DNA from: Candidatus Manganitrophaceae bacterium
Lineage (GTDB): Bacteria > Nitrospirota > Nitrospiria > SBBL01 > Manganitrophaceae
Assembly (NCBI GenBank): GCA_016200325.1
Contig: JACQEZ010000014.1
Coordinates: forward strand, 62,001-126,000
Reading direction: 5' to 3'
Length of the DNA stretch: 64,000 nucleotides
Both the position numbers and the translations under genes were made by a program. Under the pieces are notes generated by a model. The model searched no databases, was not told the DNA's origin, and saw only the letters and a program-made list of their open reading frames with translations. Below are positions 50,585 through 61,256 of the stretch, one piece after another; position 1 is the first letter of the stretch, and each line of letters opens with the position of its first letter.

Positions 50585-51418
50585 TCAATTTAATGCAACT
50601 GAAATTTCATTGGAATCTCCGCTGGAGCAGCCATCCGAATTTACTGCAGTTGCCTTATAAATATAGGTCTCTCCTGATGATAAATTTCCATCTAAAAAGC
50701 TAAGTGAGGTGATTGGCAAGGATGTAATGCGAGTATATGCCGTTTGGCCAGATGTCCGGCGGAAGAGATGATATCCAAGGAGATTTGGTTCATTTGGGTT
50801 CGACCAGGAAAGAAGGATGGTCTCTTTACCGTGTCGCGGACTCCAGAGATTTAATGGCGGCGCCGGCGGAGGCGCAGCGGCGCCTTGTATAAAATTGACA
50901 ACCAATCGTGTCGGATCGACCCCGTTCGGGAAAGCATAGGAGCCTCCTCCAGGAGAGATCTCGGTTGTGACGCCGCGGGTTGTATCCGTCAGCCGTACAA
51001 TTGGATGTTGGCAGAGGTTGTTAGAAGCATTGAGAGTCCAGGTGAGTATCGTGTCGGTTCCAAGGCGGTCCGAGGAGACATCGATATCCCAGGTGTGAGA
51101 GGGCTCGTTGCTGCTTCGAATGTCTTGCCAGAGCCATTCGCTTCCGGCCGTATAGCTGGTGCTATTCATATATTCCGGATGGGGAAATGTCGTTTGTAGC
51201 GGACCTGCAGGGAAAGCAACGGTGTCCCACTGATTATTGAAAGCATCATCAGCGGTTCTATCGACGCCCAAAATGAGTCTGCTTTGAAATACACCATTGG
51301 GTGCGAAAGGATCCGGGGTCGAGAAATTTAGAACCATATACCAATCAAGGGCCCAGCTGATGGAAGAGATTCCCATCGTGCTCATCAAAATCGCTAAGAT
51401 AAAGAAAAGTCGCCTCAT
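50585..51418 (-). CDS. Secreted protein with C-terminal fibronectin type III domain
   Basis: A 277-residue protein with signal peptide (FFILAILMSTMGISSISWA/L). The N-terminal 170 residues form an unnamed beta domain (WYMVLNFSTPDPFAPNGVFQ, FHWDID-like strands). A fibronectin type III domain covers about 185-275 (PPAPPLNLWSPRHGKETILL, LLGYHLFRRTSGQTAYTRIT). It lies 15 bases after the giant exoprotein gene and so is very likely in the same transcript. Confidence 0.75.
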   Translation of the reverse strand: MRRLFFILAILMSTMGISSISWALDWYMVLNFSTPDPFAPNGVFQSRLILGVDRTADDAFNNQWDTVAFPAGPLQTTFPHPEYMNSTSYTAGSEWLWQDIRSSNEPSHTWDIDVSSDRLGTDTILTWTLNASNNLCQHPIVRLTDTTRGVTTEISPGGGSYAFPNGVDPTRLVVNFIQGAAAPPPAPPLNLWSPRHGKETILLSWSNPNEPNLLGYHLFRRTSGQTAYTRITSLPITSLSFLDGNLSSGETYIYKATAVNSDGCSSGDSNEISVALN

Positions 51419-51433
51419 CGATTCCCCTTTGAT

Positions 51434-54400
51434 TTATGGTTTCACAACAATCAGGTTATAAGTATTTGCCGCATTTGCGTCAGTCACCTGCAGCCAGTAG
51501 CCCTGCCAGAGTTGCAAAGTCGCTTTTTGTGCTGGATCAGGATCATTATAAGTCTTAAACGTGTAGGCAGCGCCATCCCATCGGTAGAGCGCATTCCCGA
51601 CCCAACCGGCGGCTACGGCATTGGCATATGATTTAAAATTAGCGGCATTAGCGGAAGAAGTGCAGGTCCCTGTCCCACCGTTTTGACCAACGCAAGTGGT
51701 ATCTAGACTGACATCTTTGGTATAGGGGTTTCCGATGATGTTATACCCCTGGCTAAGTGGGATTGTGAAGGTCGCGGCCGAATTAGCAGACCCAGCGGGG
51801 TTTAGGAATCGTGTGTCGTCAGGGGATTCGAGGAAATATCCAACCCCAGGCAGAACCGTATCTGTTGCAGAAAGAAGATCGAACGATCCGGTCTGATTGG
51901 TCGTTCCGGTCGAGACCCACTTTTTTACATTTACTGGGACCCCGACACTCGATCCAAAAACGGTTGCCACGTCGGCAGGGCTTGGAGTCATTGGGACGGA
52001 GACCATGTTCCAACCGCTGAGTAAGTTGGTGGCCGGGATGGGGGGGCTGCTTGCCGCATTAACAACATTCGATAGTGGAGAGGTCCACGGTTTCGCATCG
52101 CTGCTTTTTAGCGCAAAGTAATAGGGGGTATTCGGATTCAGCCCTTGGATCGTGAAGGTTTCTGTCGAGCCGGCCGACTGAGGCGTCGGTGCGGTCGTCG
52201 CTGCCGTTGCATTTGAGAATCGGACCTCCCCGACCGCTGGGGTGGCAGCATCATCAACGATCTTTAATGTTGAATACCGGATGTTATAGGATGTTACCGT
52301 TCCGCAGGGACATCCCGATCCGGTTCCTGCATCTCCCGGCGCAGTCCATGTCAAGGTTGTAGAATTCGGTGTCCGGGCGCTGATTGCCAAATTGGTAACC
52401 GCATTTGGAGCAACTGAATCGGTCACGGTCGGCCCAGAGAAGATTCCTAATGAGGGAACGAGCGGTAAAAAGACCTGTTTGCCTCCGTCGGAGGCTTCAA
52501 AAAGATATGTATGGCTCCCAATACCAAGGTTGGTACTATAGGTATATTGTTCTCCATTGACATAGTTGCCATCCTTAAGTGCGGCTGAGGCGCTGCTGTC
52601 CAGGCTCATTAATCGCCCCGAATCACCATCGATGTGGACCTTTACATACAGTGGGCGGTTGTTGTCCGGGTGGGTATAAACTACTTTATACGTAAACTGA
52701 GTTGATCCGCTTTCGCCATTGTCAGGATTGACTCCATCGGTTCCATATCCGGTGGCGGATGAAAACTGTAGGAACGGTTCGTTCACAGAGACGTTCGGTC
52801 CGGGAAGAGGTACACTCGGTGCACTGGTCGGCAGTGTATAGGTGTTGCTTCCATCGGAAGCGACGAAATAATAGGTGTGCGATCCGACCGCAAGCTGATT
52901 CGCAGTCGTGCTGTAGTAGAACTGTTCTCCGTCTGTGTAATCGCCGTTTCTTAAGGGGTCATTGGTGATAAAGGAGCCATCATGAGACATATTGAAACCA
53001 ACACCATCAATATAGACCTTAATTGAAGTCGGGGCAAAATTGGATCCGCTGGCATAGACAACTTTATAAGTGTAGATGTGCGCAGGATTCCATCCATCCG
53101 GGTCGACACCATCGGTTCCGTAATATCCCCCTTCCGGAGAGTAAGAGAGGGTTGGGAGACTGTTATAGTTAACCTGGACATAGATCTGTGTAACGCGGAC
53201 TTCATTGCATCCTCCTGAGCGGAAGCAATCTTGCTTAGTCAGTTTAACCACGCCGAGAAGACTGGCGACATCATTCCAGGTCCATGCGGCACCGGTTTTT
53301 GGATTGTTATTGTAGAGGGTACTAGCATAGGTTGTGTAAGTACTGTTTCCAGGGGTTGTGTAGGCGCTCGTATAATCGGTTCCGCCGACTTGAAGGCCGA
53401 CTGAGAAGTTGATGTTATTACTCCCGGCGTCTCGAATAATTGCGAAGGATTGGACGGAGGTAATCACCGCTGTGCTCCGGACTGTATCATCCATGTTCAT
53501 ATACAGTTTATTGTTCGTTCGAGTTGCTCGTGCATAAGAGATGTCGCCGTCAAAGAGCCAGGGTACACTGCTTAGGTTGGGCGAGAAGGCAGTTGCTGAA
53601 GTGAAAGAGGTGTCATTCGCAATGGCGGTGACCCTCCGTTTCTGCTGCGGCGAACCGGCGGTGACGATGCTCCCGACGCTCATGGTGGTGAAGTTAGATC
53701 CGACTCCTGTCACGGTGGTCGATCCCGATGCGTTTGAGATGGTCCCATTGCCGGGATAGCCTGCATCCAGCGCGGTGGAGGGATCTTGGTCATTTCCTAA
53801 GAAAGTAAATCCCGATGTTTGAGAATTCCGGCTGGCCGGGTAGACAATCACCCCCGAGCTGACCGAGTCGGTCACTGAGGGGGCGAGGAAGCCGTCGCCA
53901 TTCAGCGGCCAGACAACGGGTGTGACGCCATCAGTAGCATCAAAGGAGTAGGCATGGGTGCCCGGATCGGCCATGTACACGGTTACGGTATACTGCTCGC
54001 CGTTTGTGTAGTTTCCATCGCTGATACCATTATGGGTATAAGAGGTTCCTGAAGAAAGGTTGGAGCTAAATGCAGAGTTGACGGTCAAACTGGTCGCACT
54101 CGCGATGGCGGTCACCGTCTTGGTTTGAGCGGATGCGGTAATCGTGTCTCCGACGACCAGCTCTGCTAAGAAATTCGTTCCGCTGCCGGTCACCGTGGTA
54201 GAAGATGAGGAAATCGTTCCGGCTCCGGTGACCGTGGCACCTGTATCCGGATTCATCGCGTAGACCGTCGTGTTGTAATCGAGAAGGAGTCGGGGATAGC
54301 CCGTGACCGGGGGGTTATTGTCAGCGTCGGTATAGACAATCTTAAAAATGAACGGCGTGCTGACTGTTCCGGTGTTCGGTTCTACCCCTCGGAGCGGGAG

Positions 54401-57400
54401 ATCGGTGAAGAAAGAGGTGAATGCCGCTCCGGAGAGGTTTGGAGAGAAGGCTGTGTCGACCGTTAAAGAAGTATTGCTCGCAATCGTCATCACCGTCCGG
54501 GTCTGCCCGGCAGCCGTGATGGTGGATCCAACCTGAAGCTGGGTTTGGAAGCTTGTTCCCGTCCCGGTAACGGTCGTTGTCCCTGACGTGGTCAAAGTGC
54601 CTGTGCCCGACCAGGCGGCATACGAGAAGGTCGTTCCGGACAGATTGGGGGAGAAGGGGGTATCCACCGTTAGGCTGGTGTTGCTGCTGATTGCAGTAAC
54701 GGTTCGGGTCTGTCCGCTGGCAGTGGTAATGGTTGTGCCGACTTGAAGCTGTGTTGTAAAGCTCGTTCCTGTGCCGGTCACAGTGTTGGTTCCGGAGGTA
54801 GAAAGCGTGCCGGTCCCGGTCGACCGGAGAGTATAGCCGGTCTGATTTGCGAAAGAAAGGGTCGGCGCACTGCTGGAGACGACCGGCCCGCTCAGGGTTC
54901 CAGAGAGTGGAGTCCGGGCCGTGTTGGTGCCGTCTGAGACGTCGAAGTAATAGTTATGGGGCGCTCCTTGCGCTGCAAGCCCGGTGGTTGTGTAGACATA
55001 CTGCTCCCCATTGGTGTAATCGCCATCATGCAGCGCCGCAGAAGCTTGCGTGTCTAGGGTCATGGCGACCCCTCCTGCGCTGCCGTCAATGTGAACCTTG
55101 GGATATCCGGCGGCAGGGGCAACACCAAAAGCCTGTGTGTATACGATTCGATAGCTGAAAGATGTCCCCGTGGTCCCACCATTCGGGTCGACCCCGTCGT
55201 CGAAATACCTCGGATCACTTGCAAAGGTCAAATTAATCGGCGAATAGGTGATGGTGAGATAAAGTTGGGTGACCCGAACTTCATTGTTGTTGGTTTGGTG
55301 TACCACCACCGCCCCCATGCCGTTGATATCATTCCAGGTCCAGTTTTCCCCGGTTGCTGGATTGGTGGTGTAAAGGGTGCCGGAGAGTGTTCCATAGGCG
55401 TCGGCCGGGGTTTTGGTGGACCCTGAGAGATAATCAGTGATGCCGAGTCGTAATCCGAAGTCCAGGCCTGTGGTCGTGGAGCTCGATGTGTCTCTGGCAA
55501 CAACCGATACCTGAACGGAGATAATCGAGAGGGCATCCGGTAGCGTTGCAGGGGGGTCGATCTCCATATAGAGCCGGTCACCGTTCACGGTGCTCCTGGC
55601 GAAAGAGGTATCACCGTCGTTTGTATCCAGCGCTACTGCATTGGCATAGGTGCTGGTGCCGCTGGAGCTACAGGTTGGGGTTGAGTTGCAGAAGGTCCAG
55701 CCAGTGGTGGCTGCCGTCCCTGAGCTCGTGAGTCCAGAAGGGGCGAGGTTTGGTGAGGCTCCGGTAAGGGAGACATAGGGCCCGTTATAGGTTGCAGTGC
55801 CGGCCGGTGACCGCGCCGTATTGGTCCCATCGCTGGCGTCGAAATAATAGGTATGGCTTCCCTGGCTCAATGTTGCCGTATAGACGTATTGCTCTCCATT
55901 TGCGTAATTTCCATCGTGGAGGGTTGCAGCGGCGGAGGAGTCGAGGGTCATTGCGACGCCGGTCGCGTTACCGTCGATGTGAACCTTCGGATTGTTCGCA
56001 GCGGGGGCGACGTTATTAATTTGATAGTACACAGTTTTGAACTTAAACTGAGTGCTTGTATTTCCTAGATCGGGATTCACCCCATCGGCGATATAACCGG
56101 ACTCGGTCGAAGTTTGTAATTGAACCGGACCATAGTTGACGGTTACATAGAGTTGTGTGACGCGCATTTTGCTGGCATTCGTATGATGAACGACCGCGAT
56201 CAATTTTTGGATATCGGTCCAGGTCCAGGGGGCTCCGGTCAATGGATTGAACCCATAGGCTGTCCCTGACAAGGTCGTATATGTTGTTGAGGAGGTGCTG
56301 AGGACCGATCCCTCGATGAGATTATCGGCGGTGGAGAGCCCCAGCGTAAAGTTAATTGTCCCCGACTCGCTCCTGACGATCGCACTCACCTGAACCGAGG
56401 TGATGAATTGTCCATTGGATCGGGCGTCGTCGAGCGACATATATAAATAATCGTCGGTGTTCCTCCCCCGAGCATAGGTTGTATCGCCATCATTGGTGTC
56501 GAGGGCGGTTGTCGGATCGAAACAGTCAGATCGTCTAAAGCCCGAATTGCAGAAGCTGAACCCGGAGGTCCCATCGACGGAATCGCTTGGATAGAGGATG
56601 AAGCTGCCGGCCGGTAGGGAAATAGCGGGACCGCTATAATTCCCGGAGACCGGGGACACGACGCTGGCAGTCCCATCCGAGGCGTCAAAATAATAACTAC
56701 GAGTGGTGCCGGTGGGGAATCCTCCTGAATAGGTGTATGTGTATTGTTCCCCATCGATGTAGTTCCCGTCATGCAGCGTCGGATCCGAAACATTGGTATC
56801 GAGGGTCATTGCAACGCCGGTTGCATTGCCGTCGATGTGGACCTTGGGATACCCGGCGGCCGGAGCGGTGCCATTGGCATTGCTATAGATGACTTTGTAG
56901 GTAAAGCTTGTGGTGTTGTTTCCGGAGTCGGGATTAACCCCGTCGATACTGTCATAGCCCGGATCATCTGAGAAGGAAAGGATCACCGGTGTATGGGTAA
57001 TCAACACTTTAAATTGGGTAATACGAACAGCATTTGTGCTCTCATTGAGGACGATCCCGAGCGCTTGATTGATATCATCCCAAGTAAAAGATTTTCCGGT
57101 ATCCGGATTGATTTTGAATAGGGCGCTGGCCGGTGTATAAGTGGTATAGGCCGCGCAACTGGCACTCACTGCGACGCTGAAGGCACTGCTGAGATAGTCT
57201 GTTCCATTTAATTGAAGGCCCAATCGGACACTGGCCGCACTACTGGGTGCGCACATTACTGCCGAGACCTGAACGGCGGTGATTGAGCCGGTCAGTGCCG
57301 AGTCGTCCAGATCAAGATAAAGAGTCTCTCCATTATCCGAAGGGGCATTATCTGCATAAGTCGTGTTTCCATCGGCTGTGTCAAGGGCACTTGAAGCATC

Positions 57401-59317
57401 ACCCCCATTAAAACCCCAATCCCCGGTCGTCAGGGCATTATCTGCCGACGGCAAGATGGTATCGGTCCCTGCGGCAATTGCCACTCCGGGAGCCGCCAAC
57501 GTACCGACAGACGGCTTCTGGGCGCTATCCGAACCGTCCGATGCAGAGAAATAATAATTGTGTTGGCCGGAAGAGAGAGAAGCGGCGGTATAGACGTACT
57601 GCTCGCCATTGGTATAGTCGAGATCATTAAAGTCCGGATCTTCCGTATTGGCGTCGCGCGTCATGGTATGGCCGCCGTCGCCGTCGATATAAACTTTAAT
57701 TGTTGAGGGCGGATTGTTGTTTAGATTGGTATAAACAACTTTGTATTTAAATGAGGTGCTGGCATTGCCACTGTCAGGATAGACCCCGCTGGTTGAGCCG
57801 TAACCGGTATCGGGGGTGTAGGACAACGCAACAGGATCGATATAGTTGATTGATAAATAGACCTGTGTGACCCGGATCCCGTTGGCGTTGGTCCGATGGT
57901 TGATGACTGCGATCAGACTGTTAATGTCATTCCAAGTCCAGGCGGCCAGCGTTGCGGGATTATGGGTATAGAAATCGCTGGTAAAAGTCTGATAGGACGT
58001 GGTTCCTCCGATAAAAGTAAATGGTACGGCTGAATCGCGGGAGGTAGGAAGCTGAGGGCTGAAGGCGGAACTGACGGTGAGATCGTTACTATCAGTCACA
58101 GCGGAAACCGTTCGGGTTTGTCCCATCGCGGTGATCTGACTTCCAACGGCCAATTGTGAGGTAAAGTTGGTGGCATTCCCATGAATACTGGTTGTACCAG
58201 TGGAATAAATGGTGCCGGAGCCCTGCACTTCATCAAAACCGGTGACATAATCAGTGCCGTTGGTCCGAATACCGACCTCCATATTGCAGGGGATGGTGAT
58301 GCATTTTGCGACGACGTTGAGTCGGACTCCTGTAATTGCAGTTGTTCCGTTGGGGAAATCGTCCAGATCAATATAGAGGCTGTCATCCTGGGTAATGCTC
58401 TGAACATAGGAAGTGTCCCCGTCATTAGTATCTAGGGCTGTTGCTTCAGAGCCGGCCGGGCTGTATGCCCATCCGATATAGGTCCAGCTCGTCCCGGCTG
58501 AAAGGTTTGGGGAAAAAGTGCTGTTGACGGTAAGACTTGTGGCGCTGGCGATGGCTGTGACAGTTCGGGTCTGTCCTGCAGCGGTGATAATACTTCCGAC
58601 AAGGAGTTTGGTGTTAAAACTGGTTCCGGACCCTGTAACCGTGGTGCCGCTGGAGGAGATTGTTCCGGTTCCATTCCAGACTGACGTAAGAGCATTTCTT
58701 CCCGAAGGGGAGATCGCCTTCGTATAGTTCACCTTTACATAGACCTCTGTGATTCGAAGCGCGTTGGCATTGCTTGCATGCAACACCATTGGAATCAATG
58801 AGTTGATGTCTGTCCAGGTCCATGGCGCGCTCGTTCGCGGATTGGTTGTATATAAATTACCTGAATAACTACTGTAAGAGGAGCTTCGGACCGATCGGCT
58901 GCTGCCGAGTCGGTCACTGGTATCCGTTGTCCCAGCGCGGAACCCGATCTGAATGTTTGTGCTCGATCCAGTGACTCGGGCCACTGCGAAGACCTGAACG
59001 TCGTTGATCGTCCATCCAGTGAGGGTTGTATCGTCCAAATCCATATAGAGTTTGTCATTCAGCGCGCTGTCTTGAATATAACTTGTGTCACTGTCATTGC
59101 TGTCAAAAACGGTTGCATAGGTGAATCCACCCCCCACGACTGTCCAAGATCCGACCGCCGCGAAGTTGGCATTCTTGCCGCTCGGATGAAGGATGAGGGT
59201 GTCGGCATGACCCGTTGAAGTGGTGAAAAGAGTAAAGATAAAGGTTGAAATAAAAAAGTAAAAAATTCTAAGGAATAGATCGCGATATTGAGAAGGGAAT
59301 CCATTTTTAGGAATCAT
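51434..59317 (-). CDS. Giant modular exoprotein (about 2,630 residues)
   Basis: The start at 59317 has AGGTGA 7 bases upstream and leads directly into a signal peptide (IFYFFISTFIFTLFTTSTGHA); an upstream ATG at 59362 has no ribosome-binding site. The mature protein alternates a ~150-residue jelly-roll-like module A (ALDTNDGDTSY ... LYMDLDD ... TWTDINSL ... RVTQLYVTVNY, six copies) with a ~110-residue module C (DGVNPDSGN ... KVHIDGNATGVAMTLD ... YTNGEQYVYT, seven copies). Module B (~65 residues, six copies) interrupts them. The C-terminus has one fibronectin type III domain (codons at about 52060-52420) and a SGWNMVSVPMTP domain ending YWLQVTDANAANTYNLIVVK. There is no LPXTG, autotransporter barrel or RTX signal. 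An adhesin or surface fibre is the likely role. A c-di-GMP riboswitch precedes it. Confidence 0.88.
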   Translation of the reverse strand: MIPKNGFPSQYRDLFLRIFYFFISTFIFTLFTTSTGHADTLILHPSGKNANFAAVGSWTVVGGGFTYATVFDSNDSDTSYIQDSALNDKLYMDLDDTTLTGWTINDVQVFAVARVTGSSTNIQIGFRAGTTDTSDRLGSSRSVRSSSYSSYSGNLYTTNPRTSAPWTWTDINSLIPMVLHASNANALRITEVYVKVNYTKAISPSGRNALTSVWNGTGTISSSGTTVTGSGTSFNTKLLVGSIITAAGQTRTVTAIASATSLTVNSTFSPNLSAGTSWTYIGWAYSPAGSEATALDTNDGDTSYVQSITQDDSLYIDLDDFPNGTTAITGVRLNVVAKCITIPCNMEVGIRTNGTDYVTGFDEVQGSGTIYSTGTTSIHGNATNFTSQLAVGSQITAMGQTRTVSAVTDSNDLTVSSAFSPQLPTSRDSAVPFTFIGGTTSYQTFTSDFYTHNPATLAAWTWNDINSLIAVINHRTNANGIRVTQVYLSINYIDPVALSYTPDTGYGSTSGVYPDSGNASTSFKYKVVYTNLNNNPPSTIKVYIDGDGGHTMTRDANTEDPDFNDLDYTNGEQYVYTAASLSSGQHNYYFSASDGSDSAQKPSVGTLAAPGVAIAAGTDTILPSADNALTTGDWGFNGGDASSALDTADGNTTYADNAPSDNGETLYLDLDDSALTGSITAVQVSAVMCAPSSAASVRLGLQLNGTDYLSSAFSVAVSASCAAYTTYTPASALFKINPDTGKSFTWDDINQALGIVLNESTNAVRITQFKVLITHTPVILSFSDDPGYDSIDGVNPDSGNNTTSFTYKVIYSNANGTAPAAGYPKVHIDGNATGVAMTLDTNVSDPTLHDGNYIDGEQYTYTYSGGFPTGTTRSYYFDASDGTASVVSPVSGNYSGPAISLPAGSFILYPSDSVDGTSGFSFCNSGFRRSDCFDPTTALDTNDGDTTYARGRNTDDYLYMSLDDARSNGQFITSVQVSAIVRSESGTINFTLGLSTADNLIEGSVLSTSSTTYTTLSGTAYGFNPLTGAPWTWTDIQKLIAVVHHTNASKMRVTQLYVTVNYGPVQLQTSTESGYIADGVNPDLGNTSTQFKFKTVYYQINNVAPAANNPKVHIDGNATGVAMTLDSSAAATLHDGNYANGEQYVYTATLSQGSHTYYFDASDGTNTARSPAGTATYNGPYVSLTGASPNLAPSGLTSSGTAATTGWTFCNSTPTCSSSGTSTYANAVALDTNDGDTSFARSTVNGDRLYMEIDPPATLPDALSIISVQVSVVARDTSSSTTTGLDFGLRLGITDYLSGSTKTPADAYGTLSGTLYTTNPATGENWTWNDINGMGAVVVHQTNNNEVRVTQLYLTITYSPINLTFASDPRYFDDGVDPNGGTTGTSFSYRIVYTQAFGVAPAAGYPKVHIDGSAGGVAMTLDTQASAALHDGDYTNGEQYVYTTTGLAAQGAPHNYYFDVSDGTNTARTPLSGTLSGPVVSSSAPTLSFANQTGYTLRSTGTGTLSTSGTNTVTGTGTSFTTQLQVGTTITTASGQTRTVTAISSNTSLTVDTPFSPNLSGTTFSYAAWSGTGTLTTSGTTTVTGTGTSFQTQLQVGSTITAAGQTRTVMTIASNTSLTVDTAFSPNLSGAAFTSFFTDLPLRGVEPNTGTVSTPFIFKIVYTDADNNPPVTGYPRLLLDYNTTVYAMNPDTGATVTGAGTISSSSTTVTGSGTNFLAELVVGDTITASAQTKTVTAIASATSLTVNSAFSSNLSSGTSYTHNGISDGNYTNGEQYTVTVYMADPGTHAYSFDATDGVTPVVWPLNGDGFLAPSVTDSVSSGVIVYPASRNSQTSGFTFLGNDQDPSTALDAGYPGNGTISNASGSTTVTGVGSNFTTMSVGSIVTAGSPQQKRRVTAIANDTSFTSATAFSPNLSSVPWLFDGDISYARATRTNNKLYMNMDDTVRSTAVITSVQSFAIIRDAGSNNINFSVGLQVGGTDYTSAYTTPGNSTYTTYASTLYNNNPKTGAAWTWNDVASLLGVVKLTKQDCFRSGGCNEVRVTQIYVQVNYNSLPTLSYSPEGGYYGTDGVDPDGWNPAHIYTYKVVYASGSNFAPTSIKVYIDGVGFNMSHDGSFITNDPLRNGDYTDGEQFYYSTTANQLAVGSHTYYFVASDGSNTYTLPTSAPSVPLPGPNVSVNEPFLQFSSATGYGTDGVNPDNGESGSTQFTYKVVYTHPDNNRPLYVKVHIDGDSGRLMSLDSSASAALKDGNYVNGEQYTYSTNLGIGSHTYLFEASDGGKQVFLPLVPSLGIFSGPTVTDSVAPNAVTNLAISARTPNSTTLTWTAPGDAGTGSGCPCGTVTSYNIRYSTLKIVDDAATPAVGEVRFSNATAATTAPTPQSAGSTETFTIQGLNPNTPYYFALKSSDAKPWTSPLSNVVNAASSPPIPATNLLSGWNMVSVPMTPSPADVATVFGSSVGVPVNVKKWVSTGTTNQTGSFDLLSATDTVLPGVGYFLESPDDTRFLNPAGSANSAATFTIPLSQGYNIIGNPYTKDVSLDTTCVGQNGGTGTCTSSANAANFKSYANAVAAGWVGNALYRWDGAAYTFKTYNDPDPAQKATLQLWQGYWLQVTDANAANTYNLIVVKP
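52420..57838 (-). repeat. Module C, seven copies in the giant exoprotein
   Basis: Approximate spans: 57490-57838, 56625-56990, 55760-56135, 54870-55240, 53860-54870 (enlarged by three B inserts), 52780-53165 and 52420-52780. Landmarks are DGV-(N/D/Y)-PD, F-x-Y-K-V-V-Y, K-V-(H/Y)-I-D-G, (N/D)-Y-x-(N/D)-G-E-Q and Y-Y-F-x-A-S-D-G. An Ig-like fold is likely but not proven. Confidence 0.75.
53165..59200 (-). repeat. Module A, six copies in the giant exoprotein
   Basis: Approximate spans: 58725-59200, 57838-58470, 56990-57490, 56135-56620, 55240-55760 and 53165-53855. Shared landmarks are an Asp-rich DTNDGDTSY loop, LYM(D/S/N)LDD, a strand I-x-x-V-Q-V-x-A, G-T-D-Y, the W-T-W-N-D-I-N phrase and the closing R-V-T-Q-x-Y-V-x-V-N-Y. 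The style recalls jelly-roll domains of phage structural and bacterial surface proteins. Two copies (second and sixth) are split by module B. Confidence 0.75.
53548..58682 (-). repeat. Module B, six copies nested inside modules A and C
   Basis: Approximate spans: 58475-58680, 58015-58225, 54630-54825, 54415-54625, 54035-54240 and 53550-53755. Each reads roughly GTGTISSSGTTVTGSGTSF ... VGSIITAAGQTRTVTAIAS ... TSLTVNSTFSPNLS. The third and fourth are in tandem. DNA identity between copies looks high, which suggests recent spread. Confidence 0.8.
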
Positions 59318-59540
59318 TTTTTTAATCACCTGATTTCCTTCTCCACTCGACAAGCAATCCATTATTCTTGCTTTTTGTTTTCAAGCCCGCTTCGGCCATT
59401 GTCCGCATAGGATGTATATTATTTTGGTATATAGTCCTAGACCGAGTATATCGCTGTCCCGTCTTGCGTCAACAAGATTCATTACACAATTCTGTTGGTT
59501 GTCTGAGTGTTTTAAAATTTCTACCTGCCTATTTTTATCA

Positions 59541-59577
59541 ATAAAAAAGCTCATACCACCTTTATGGGGATGAGCTT
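59541..59577 (-). terminator. Intrinsic terminator / riboswitch expression platform
   Basis: On the minus strand AAGCTCAT (59577-59570) pairs with ATGAGCTT (59554-59547) and runs into TTTTTT. Inner CC/GG pairs can lengthen the stem. It begins 5 bases after the aptamer P1 helix and over 220 bases before the gene start, so it is an attenuator, not a gene-end terminator. AGCTC in its 5' arm can pair instead with GAGCT in the aptamer core (about 59665-59669), a possible antiterminator. Confidence 0.85.
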
Positions 59578-59581
59578 CGAG

Positions 59582-59675
59582 CGATAGCCGCTTCGGGAGT
59601 CCTTGCAACCATATCACTGAGACTTAGGTCAGGGACTTTGCGCCCCTTCTCTTTCGAGGAGGGTAGCTCTTATCG
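59582..59675 (-). promoter_or_regulatory. Class I cyclic-di-GMP riboswitch (GEMM) aptamer
   Basis: The minus strand folds as GEMM. P1 is CGATA (59675-59671) with TATCG (59586-59582). After GCTACCC comes a hairpin closed by a GAAA tetraloop (59655-59652). Next is GGGGCGCAAAG, matching the conserved GGGACGCAAAG. A second helix AGTCC/GGACT carries CCTAAG (59628-59623) and TATGG (59613-59609), the 11-nt GAAA tetraloop receptor. The promoter lies just upstream and a terminator just downstream. c-di-GMP should therefore set whether transcription continues into the giant exoprotein gene. The sign (on or off) cannot be read safely from sequence. Confidence 0.9.
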
Positions 59676-59708
59676 GTGGCTTTATCTGAACTGAAATTGT
59701 CAATCCAT

Positions 59709-59737
59709 ACTATACGACTGGGATATCATCCCGTCAA
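59709..59737 (-). promoter_or_regulatory. Sigma70-type promoter of the riboswitch transcript
   Basis: On the minus strand TTGACG (59737-59732), 17 bases, TATAGT (59714-59709). Transcription should start near 59702, about 27 bases before aptamer P1. Confidence 0.78.
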
Positions 59738-59777: not shown

Positions 59778-61256
59778 TTAATCGGGGTTTGTCTGAAGGA
59801 AAACGGAAATGGTGTTGTCGCCTGCATTGGTCACGGCAAGGTCATCTCGGCCGTCGCCATTTAAATCTCTGGCCACAACTCCCAGAGGACGGTTGCCGGT
59901 TGGATGTTGGATTGGATCCGAAAATAGACCGCCCCCGAGGTTTAGTAAAATGGAAACAGTCTTGTTAGCGCTGTTTGACACTGCAATATCAGGTTTTCCA
60001 TCGTGGTTAAAATCTCCTGTCGCGGCAAATTCGGGGCGTCCTCCCAAAGCGATTATCACTGGTTGGGCTGAAAGTCCCCCAATACCATCTCCAAAAAACA
60101 GAATTAATTGGGACGAGTCGCTATTGACGACGGCAAGGTCGAGATTTCCGTCCCCATTCCAGTCTCCAGACACAATCGCATTAGGACCGGCCACCCCGTT
60201 AGTGCCCGTAGTAGAGAAGAATTGTTGGGAAGGGAAGCCGCCGCTGCCATCATTGAGTAAAATCGCGATCTGATTATCGGATCCAAAAACGACAACCAGA
60301 TCCATCCAGGTATCATTGTTTAAATCAACGGCAAGTAGTGCGATCGGTCCATTCCCGCTGAACGGTACAGGCAGAGGAGATTGGAAGGTTCCATCTCCGT
60401 TTCCAAAAATAAGGGAAAGGTCAACTGTCGAAAGATTAAGAGTGGCAAGGTCTTGTTTGCCGTCATTATTAAAATCGGCAGTAACGATGGCAATGGGACC
60501 ATTGGTCGACAAGGAGACTTCTGTCGTGGAGCCGATTCCACTGTCAATGCCCAGAAACATGGAGATCGATGAATCGTGCGAGGGATCTCCAAAATTAGCG
60601 ACTGCCAAATCGTCAAACGTTCCGGGGTCGAATCGACCCGTAGTAAGTGATTGCGGAAAGATGCCAACTGAATAAGACTGCGTCACAGAAAATAGACCGC
60701 CTCCCGTTCCTTTTAGGAGTGAAATAGTATTATCGTCCGTATTAGTACTAACTAAGTCAACGATACCATCATCATTAAAATCACCAGAAGAGATCGAAGC
60801 AGGTGACGGCCCCACTGGATAACTGGTCGGACTTAAGAAGAGGCGGAAGGTGACCTGGATGGTTGCGGTTTTTGAGAGCCCGCCGGAGGTGGCGGTAATG
60901 GTTGCCGATCCTTCTGCCAATCCCGATGCGAGCCCATTGGCGTCGATACTTACTATAGTTGGAGTATCGGAGGACCAGGTGAAGGTAACGCCAGAGAGAG
61001 CATTTCCACTGGAATCCCGGGCGACCGCACTGAATTGTTGAGAGCTATTTTTTGCGATGGTCACGGAAGCGGGGGAGACCTCGATCGCTGCAATGATAGG
61101 ATTCGGTGTAGGCCCCGGCCCATTCTCATTTCCACCACCTCCGCCGCCACAGGCAGCGATAATTGAGAAGAGACCTATTCCTAAGGTAAAAAGCAGAATT
61201 TGAGTAAATGAGATCCTGCCGGTTGGTCGGTCCGATATGCTGAAAAGGATTTTCAT
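59778..61256 (-). CDS. Lipoprotein with BIG2-type Ig domain and FG-GAP repeats
   Basis: A 492-residue lipoprotein. A hydrophobic segment leads to lipobox IIAAC, followed by six Gly and a Pro/Asn linker. A bacterial Ig-like (BIG2) domain spans about residues 55-137 (IEVSPASVTIAKNSSQQFSA ... GLASGLAEGSATITATSGG). The rest has about six FG-GAP/VCBS repeats (DFNDDGIVDLV, DFNNDGKQDLA, DWNGDGNLDLA, DFNHDGKPDIA, DLNGDGRDDLA), probably a beta-propeller. It has its own promoter and lies upstream of the riboswitch transcript on the same strand. Confidence 0.85.
   Translation of the reverse strand: MKILFSISDRPTGRISFTQILLFTLGIGLFSIIAACGGGGGGNENGPGPTPNPIIAAIEVSPASVTIAKNSSQQFSAVARDSSGNALSGVTFTWSSDTPTIVSIDANGLASGLAEGSATITATSGGLSKTATIQVTFRLFLSPTSYPVGPSPASISSGDFNDDGIVDLVSTNTDDNTISLLKGTGGGLFSVTQSYSVGIFPQSLTTGRFDPGTFDDLAVANFGDPSHDSSISMFLGIDSGIGSTTEVSLSTNGPIAIVTADFNNDGKQDLATLNLSTVDLSLIFGNGDGTFQSPLPVPFSGNGPIALLAVDLNNDTWMDLVVVFGSDNQIAILLNDGSGGFPSQQFFSTTGTNGVAGPNAIVSGDWNGDGNLDLAVVNSDSSQLILFFGDGIGGLSAQPVIIALGGRPEFAATGDFNHDGKPDIAVSNSANKTVSILLNLGGGLFSDPIQHPTGNRPLGVVARDLNGDGRDDLAVTNAGDNTISVFLQTNPD

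Follow-up and report, generated by a model that had tools for sequence, protein, structure and literature searches.

A putative cGAMP-preferring GEMM-I riboswitch with a predicted OFF platform ahead of a giant secreted-protein gene in Candidatus Manganitrophus

Signalling by Hypr-type GGDEF enzymes and riboswitches for cyclic AMP-GMP (cGAMP) is known from Geobacter and other deltaproteobacteria, and no report of it in Nitrospirota was found in the literature searched. The classic GEMM-Ib riboswitches of Geobacter (GSU1761/pgcA, pilM) are ON switches with an A at position 20 (Vc2 numbering), and A20G alone converts a Geobacter cGAMP GEMM-Ib riboswitch to cyclic di-GMP (c-di-GMP) (PMC6456294). 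In Desulfobacca, a natural G-to-A change moved in-line-probing preference towards cGAMP (PMC9481103). Cd1 of Clostridioides difficile is a transcriptional OFF switch of the c-di-GMP-I type. Here we describe a GEMM-I unit on the minus strand of a 64,000-nucleotide stretch of DNA (the window) from a genome of the genus Candidatus Manganitrophus (order Troglogloeales, Nitrospirota), upstream of a gene for a giant, probably secreted protein. We read it as a cGAMP-preferring, A20 GEMM-I riboswitch with a transcriptional OFF platform, and give this reading an even chance of being right.

The window aptamer shares with the classic Geobacter members the GEMM-I fold, A20, the contact adenines of the J1/2 junction and the presence of Hypr GGDEF enzymes, but it belongs to another subfamily, with CGAUAA in J1/2, where it groups with G20 aptamers. 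Its terminator is separate from the P1 helix, and its predicted polarity is OFF rather than ON. With Cd1 it has in common an aptamer and terminator that can coexist and a competing antiterminator that excludes the aptamer; Cd1, however, senses c-di-GMP and builds its antiterminator from the aptamer 3′ strand, whereas that of the window leader would be built from the ligand core together with the 5′ strand. Among the closely related c-di-GMP-I and c-AMP-GMP paralogues of Desulfobacca acetoxidans, the selectivity position has likewise changed naturally from G to A, but these switches are predicted to be ON and stand in tandem with adenosylcobalamin (AdoCbl) riboswitches (PMC9481103). The nearest sequence relatives are four Troglogloeales aptamers of family f5 (L050-L053), 76-78% identical and also with a separate terminator. 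Unlike the window aptamer, these carry G20 (c-di-GMP type) and serve other targets; three (L050, L051, L052) stand ahead of chaperone-usher-like operons in which, by our sequence reading, small secreted proteins of one family are followed by chaperone-like and usher-like genes.

The promoter, aptamer and terminator unit

On the minus strand, between 59737 and 59543, a sigma-70 promoter is followed by a GEMM-I aptamer and then by an intrinsic terminator. The Rfam covariance model for c-di-GMP-I (RF01051) matches 59678-59592 over its full length (model positions 1-87) with 43.2 bits and an E value of 3.9e-5, against a gathering cut-off of 35 bits, and the GAAA tetraloop and its receptor, the CGCAAAG core and helices P1, P2 and P3 are all present. 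Folded alone, the terminator stretch reaches -21 kcal/mol (z -3.05); it was missed by a simple terminator scan that admits only loops of 3-8. The features of the leader, in window positions, are as follows.

59709-59737, minus: first promoter, TTGACG-N17-TATAGT, of the riboswitch leader; 10/12 consensus match, with the -35 identical and the -10 nearly identical in four genus genomes
59737-59732 and 59714-59709, minus: promoter elements TTGACG and TATAGT, 17-nucleotide spacer (promoter scan)
59592-59678, minus: GEMM-I aptamer (RF01051), A20 type, putatively for cGAMP; 43.2 bits
59655-59652, 59628-59623, 59613-59609 and 59642-59636, minus: GAAA tetraloop, CCTAAG, TATGG and CGCAAAG (sequence)
59675-59681, minus: P1 5′ strand AGCCACC, pairing with GGCU 59589-59586 (P1) or, via GCCACC, with GGUGGU 59560-59555
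59680-59675, minus: GCCACC, outer half of the predicted antiterminator (folding)
59668, minus: A at the ligand-selectivity nucleotide, Vc2 position 20 (model position 11, Rfam alignment)
59665-59669, minus: GAGCU, ligand core nucleotides 19-23 and inner half of the predicted antiterminator (folding)
59586-59597, minus: J3/1 and P1 3′ strand, CCCGAAGCGGCT (Rfam alignment; P1 fold at length 124)
59596, minus: C, equivalent of Vc2 C92 (Rfam alignment)
59547-59577, minus: intrinsic terminator hairpin, wholly 3′ of the aptamer (folding; conserved across the genus)
59577-59570 and 59554-59547, minus: terminator stem, AAGCTCAT and ATGAGCTT (sequence)
59543-59548, minus: terminator U tract (sequence)

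This block is kept in three other Candidatus Manganitrophus genomes, 5′ of the giant-gene orthologues. With a 201-base query, aptamer and terminator are 89-90% identical over about 140 nucleotides in these genomes, and the four-genome alignment shows conservation of the first promoter, the aptamer and the terminator but divergence in most of the flanking leader. Judged from its sequence, the riboswitch at 59737-59543 is real. The complete unit that an initial annotation of this DNA had placed ahead of the giant gene was thus recovered in all its parts, and the covariance-model search it had suggested as a check gave the full-length match above.

Ligand choice and the history of nucleotide 20

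That annotation named c-di-GMP as the ligand. Its aptamer class stands, but its ligand does not fare as well. The G20 position of Vc2 is an A in the window aptamer (59668) and in its three genus orthologues, that is, in four of four Manganitrophus copies, which have the A20 of cGAMP-type GEMM-Ib in place of the G of the c-di-GMP type (Ia); all four f5 homologues have G. Because of this A and of the Hypr GGDEF enzymes encoded in the genome, cGAMP is more likely than c-di-GMP to be the ligand, with dual binding possible.

The solved cGAMP riboswitch has J1/2 at A9-A14 and contacts at G8, A9, A11, A12, A14, C15, G40-A42 and C75 (PMC6274999). By our own mapping, the J1/2 contact adenines A9, A11, A12 and A14 correspond to A59673, A59671, A59670 and A59668, G8 to G59674, the adenines of G40-A42 to A59639 and A59638, and C75 to C59596. 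The C15-G40 pair is swapped to G-C (G59667-C59640), and the other mapped contacts are kept. The initial annotation had instead seen a sign of altered ligand contacts in GCTACCC, where Vc2 has GCAAACC. We rejected this marker: other members vary at the site too (GCATACC at G000:C17:39508 and 39683, GCTAACC in L050 and L051) and the site is outside the contacts of PMC6274999, for which reasons we judge nucleotide 20, A59668, just 5′ of it, to be decisive.

About 30 GGDEF matches occur in the window's genome. When the GGDEF domains were read for the motif, two GAF-GGDEF proteins with conserved orthologues showed the Hypr signature, a Ser in GHxxGS (the Asp344 position) with GGDEF intact, and are predicted cGAMP synthases. 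Their genes, at L098:2023-3162 (minus) and L099:1702-2808 (plus), are conserved in the order. The genomes with an orthologue of the first protein, 14 of the 18 in the order, are the very ones that have RF01051 matches, and every orthologue keeps the Ser; the second protein has orthologues in 11 of 18. The four order genomes that have neither Hypr protein are of other families, which makes the co-occurrence with RF01051 weak as independent evidence. Published comparative genomics of the family makes no mention of c-di-GMP, riboswitches or GGDEF (PMC9040806).

Across the 18 genomes of the order we collected 98 RF01051 matches, of which three kinds are relevant here: classic A20 aptamers of the CTTTG type (ten in the window's genome), G20 types, and the CGAUAA type, in which some aptamers have A20 and others G20. 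In a tree built without the nucleotide-20 column, and with few columns and long branches, the window clade is joined to the four G20 aptamers of f5 with support of 99/96, and not to the classic A20 aptamers, which suggests that its A20 arose by a separate G-to-A change. On this tree at least six changes of nucleotide 20 are required. Uniting every A20 aptamer in one clade is strongly rejected; forcing just the window clade and the classic A20 aptamers together is rejected only marginally (approximately unbiased test, p-AU 0.055).

Aptamers of the two kinds also occur as G20-then-A20 tandems, at G000:C16:34892-35146 (L005, L094) and G000:C20:152324-152567 (L009, L096), with further pairs in G003 (C517), G004 (C1:3347666-3347882) and G005 (C1:1017732-1017947). 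In such pairs the G20 member may act as an OFF and the A20 member as an ON switch, together forming a two-messenger gate.

Switch platform and competing readings

In the classic ON design the terminator 5′ arm is the P1 3′ strand. Among classic GEMM-Ib types the terminator overlaps that strand in 26 and is separate in 3 (18 were unscored), whereas in the CGAUAA type every one of the 18 scorable members has it 3′ of the aptamer. The window terminator is downstream and shares no base with the aptamer, so that both can form together; on this ground we rejected a pilM-like ON mechanism by capture of the P1 3′ strand.

The initial annotation had proposed that GAGCU (59669-59665) pairs with AGCUC (59576-59572) of the terminator; the complementarity is present, folding supports it, and a second helix, GCCACC/GGUGGU, extends it. 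In all four Manganitrophus leaders (three distinct), the minimum-free-energy fold before the terminator 3′ arm emerges combines these two helices. Partition functions of the window leader give the aptamer core a pair probability of 0.70-0.92 at lengths 123-132, the antiterminator 0.96-0.98 at 135-156 and the terminator 0.93-0.99 from 159, the antiterminator collapsing as that hairpin is completed. The antiterminator's advantage over the aptamer is 8.8-10.2 kcal/mol, matched in 0/150, 2/150 and 0/150 shuffles that preserve the terminator stem. By computation, then, antiterminator and ligand-bound aptamer are mutually exclusive, and the antiterminator arises ahead of the terminator. The terminator can form alongside the aptamer and the antiterminator cannot, since it uses the ligand core; bound ligand should therefore promote termination. 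When cores were swapped among 17 members of the subfamily, they paired less well with the terminators than in the native combinations (p 0.005).

We propose the following course of events. Transcription would start at about 59702, and the aptamer would fold first. With no ligand, the emerging terminator 5′ arm, AGCUC, would capture GAGCU, which holds the ligand-selecting A20, and GGUGGU would next capture GCCACC of P1; this two-part antiterminator would keep the 5′ arm off the 3′ arm and allow the giant gene to be transcribed. Ligand on the early aptamer would lock core and P1, leaving the 5′ arm free to pair with the 3′ arm and stop transcription. A second promoter, 3′ of the terminator, would provide ligand-independent expression, and a candidate operator lies just upstream of it.

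59445-59472, minus: second promoter, TTGACG-N16-TATACT, 3′ of the terminator; 10/12 match, with TTGAC and TATACT identical in 4/4 genomes and flanks diverged
59486-59502, minus: inverted repeat ACAA-N9-TTGT, candidate operator (conserved in the four-genome alignment)

The aptamer core CGAUAAGAG of related CGAUAA-type riboswitches is complementary to a segment, for example CUCUUAUCG, in the loop of their terminators, as seen in G016:C40 (L133), G016:C72 (L140), G011:C50 (L110) and G012:C21 (L126).

Several observations weigh against a cGAMP OFF switch. An OFF polarity is contrary to precedent, the cGAMP riboswitches that have been characterised being gene activators, and nucleotide 20 tunes selectivity and is no hard filter (PMC9262584), which means that c-di-GMP may bind as well. 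Under the same stem-preserving shuffle the four f5 homologues gave 10, 9, 8 and 95 of 150; among these homologues G016:C8 has no such antiterminator, and for the others the outcome is only marginal. Plain core/downstream duplex energies in the window group reach only p 0.03-0.08 against mononucleotide shuffles, the stem-preserving shuffle and the partition functions having given the clearer result. No compensatory change backs the window helix, since its pairing segments do not vary across the genus. The terminator is, moreover, the more stable fold at full length, so the switch decision must be kinetic, as it is in Cd1 (PMC9262584). Finally, because the conserved second promoter bypasses the switch, the riboswitch would control only part of expression, its effect being blunted.

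That nucleotide 20 tunes selectivity would also suit an ordinary OFF switch for c-di-GMP, or for both dinucleotides, in which A20 is tolerated and the response is mainly to c-di-GMP, as in the four closest G20 relatives. We regard this as somewhat unlikely. The nearest relatives outside the genus do carry G20, and most of the GGDEF matches in the genome have the usual Asp; yet A20 is kept in every Manganitrophus copy, changes between A and G at this position shifted preference in the cases tested (PMC6456294, PMC9481103), and Hypr-type enzymes are at hand.

The opposite polarity, a cGAMP ON switch of the classic Geobacter kind in which ligand prevents termination through a rearrangement outside secondary-structure energies, would agree with the decrease in sulfurreducens on gacA deletion (PMC6456294) and with the ON design of the classic members in the window's own genome. 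We think it improbable, as the terminator has no base in common with the aptamer and the sole strong competing helix sequesters the ligand core. A decaying aptamer, with the second promoter as the main source of giant-gene expression, would fit the conservation of that promoter and a score of 43 bits, below most siblings, which reach up to 67. Against this, the flanking leader has diverged more within the genus than have aptamer, terminator and first promoter, and only one pair of the mapped contact residues differs, swapped as a pair; we consider decay very improbable.

The giant gene and a possible cGAMP network

The gene that the putative OFF switch would control, and the next gene in the same direction, are:

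51434-59329, minus: giant gene, 2,631 amino acids, for a protein predicted to be secreted; likely start GTG at 59329, Shine-Dalgarno-like GGAGAAGGA at 59344-59336
50585-51418, minus: predicted secreted protein; fn3 match weak

The giant protein has a signal-peptide-like N terminus, a C-terminal fn3 domain and orthologues in three genus genomes; self-BLAST listed no repeats in it. Its C-terminal part (P0001, residues ~2310-2642) is 35-43% identical to large proteins from about 12 other genomes of the class, whereas most of the remainder has close matches only within the genus. The upstream neighbour, at 59778-61256 (minus), has a lipoprotein-like product containing Big_2 and FG-GAP repeats and stops about 40 bases short of the riboswitch promoter. 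In the window's genome, several other genes linked to riboswitches begin with secreted, fn3-like sequences, and no CXXCH haem motif was found among their listed products.

Taken further, and tentatively, one genome may use cGAMP with opposite signs, through classic GEMM-Ib ON switches and an independently derived A20 OFF switch serving different sets of secreted proteins. In the latter, the antiterminator strand would itself be the ligand-selecting core, with repeated changes between G20 and A20 while the pairing of core and terminator is retained, within a cGAMP network outside the Deltaproteobacteria. If this is true, the manganese-oxidising Candidatus Manganitrophus runs a cGAMP network in which large secreted proteins are under both ON and OFF control. 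Because the base that would choose the ligand also sits in the predicted antiterminator, the subfamily suits tests of ligand change, and its G20 and A20 relatives would form a natural series in which the ligand changes while the regulatory switch is retained.
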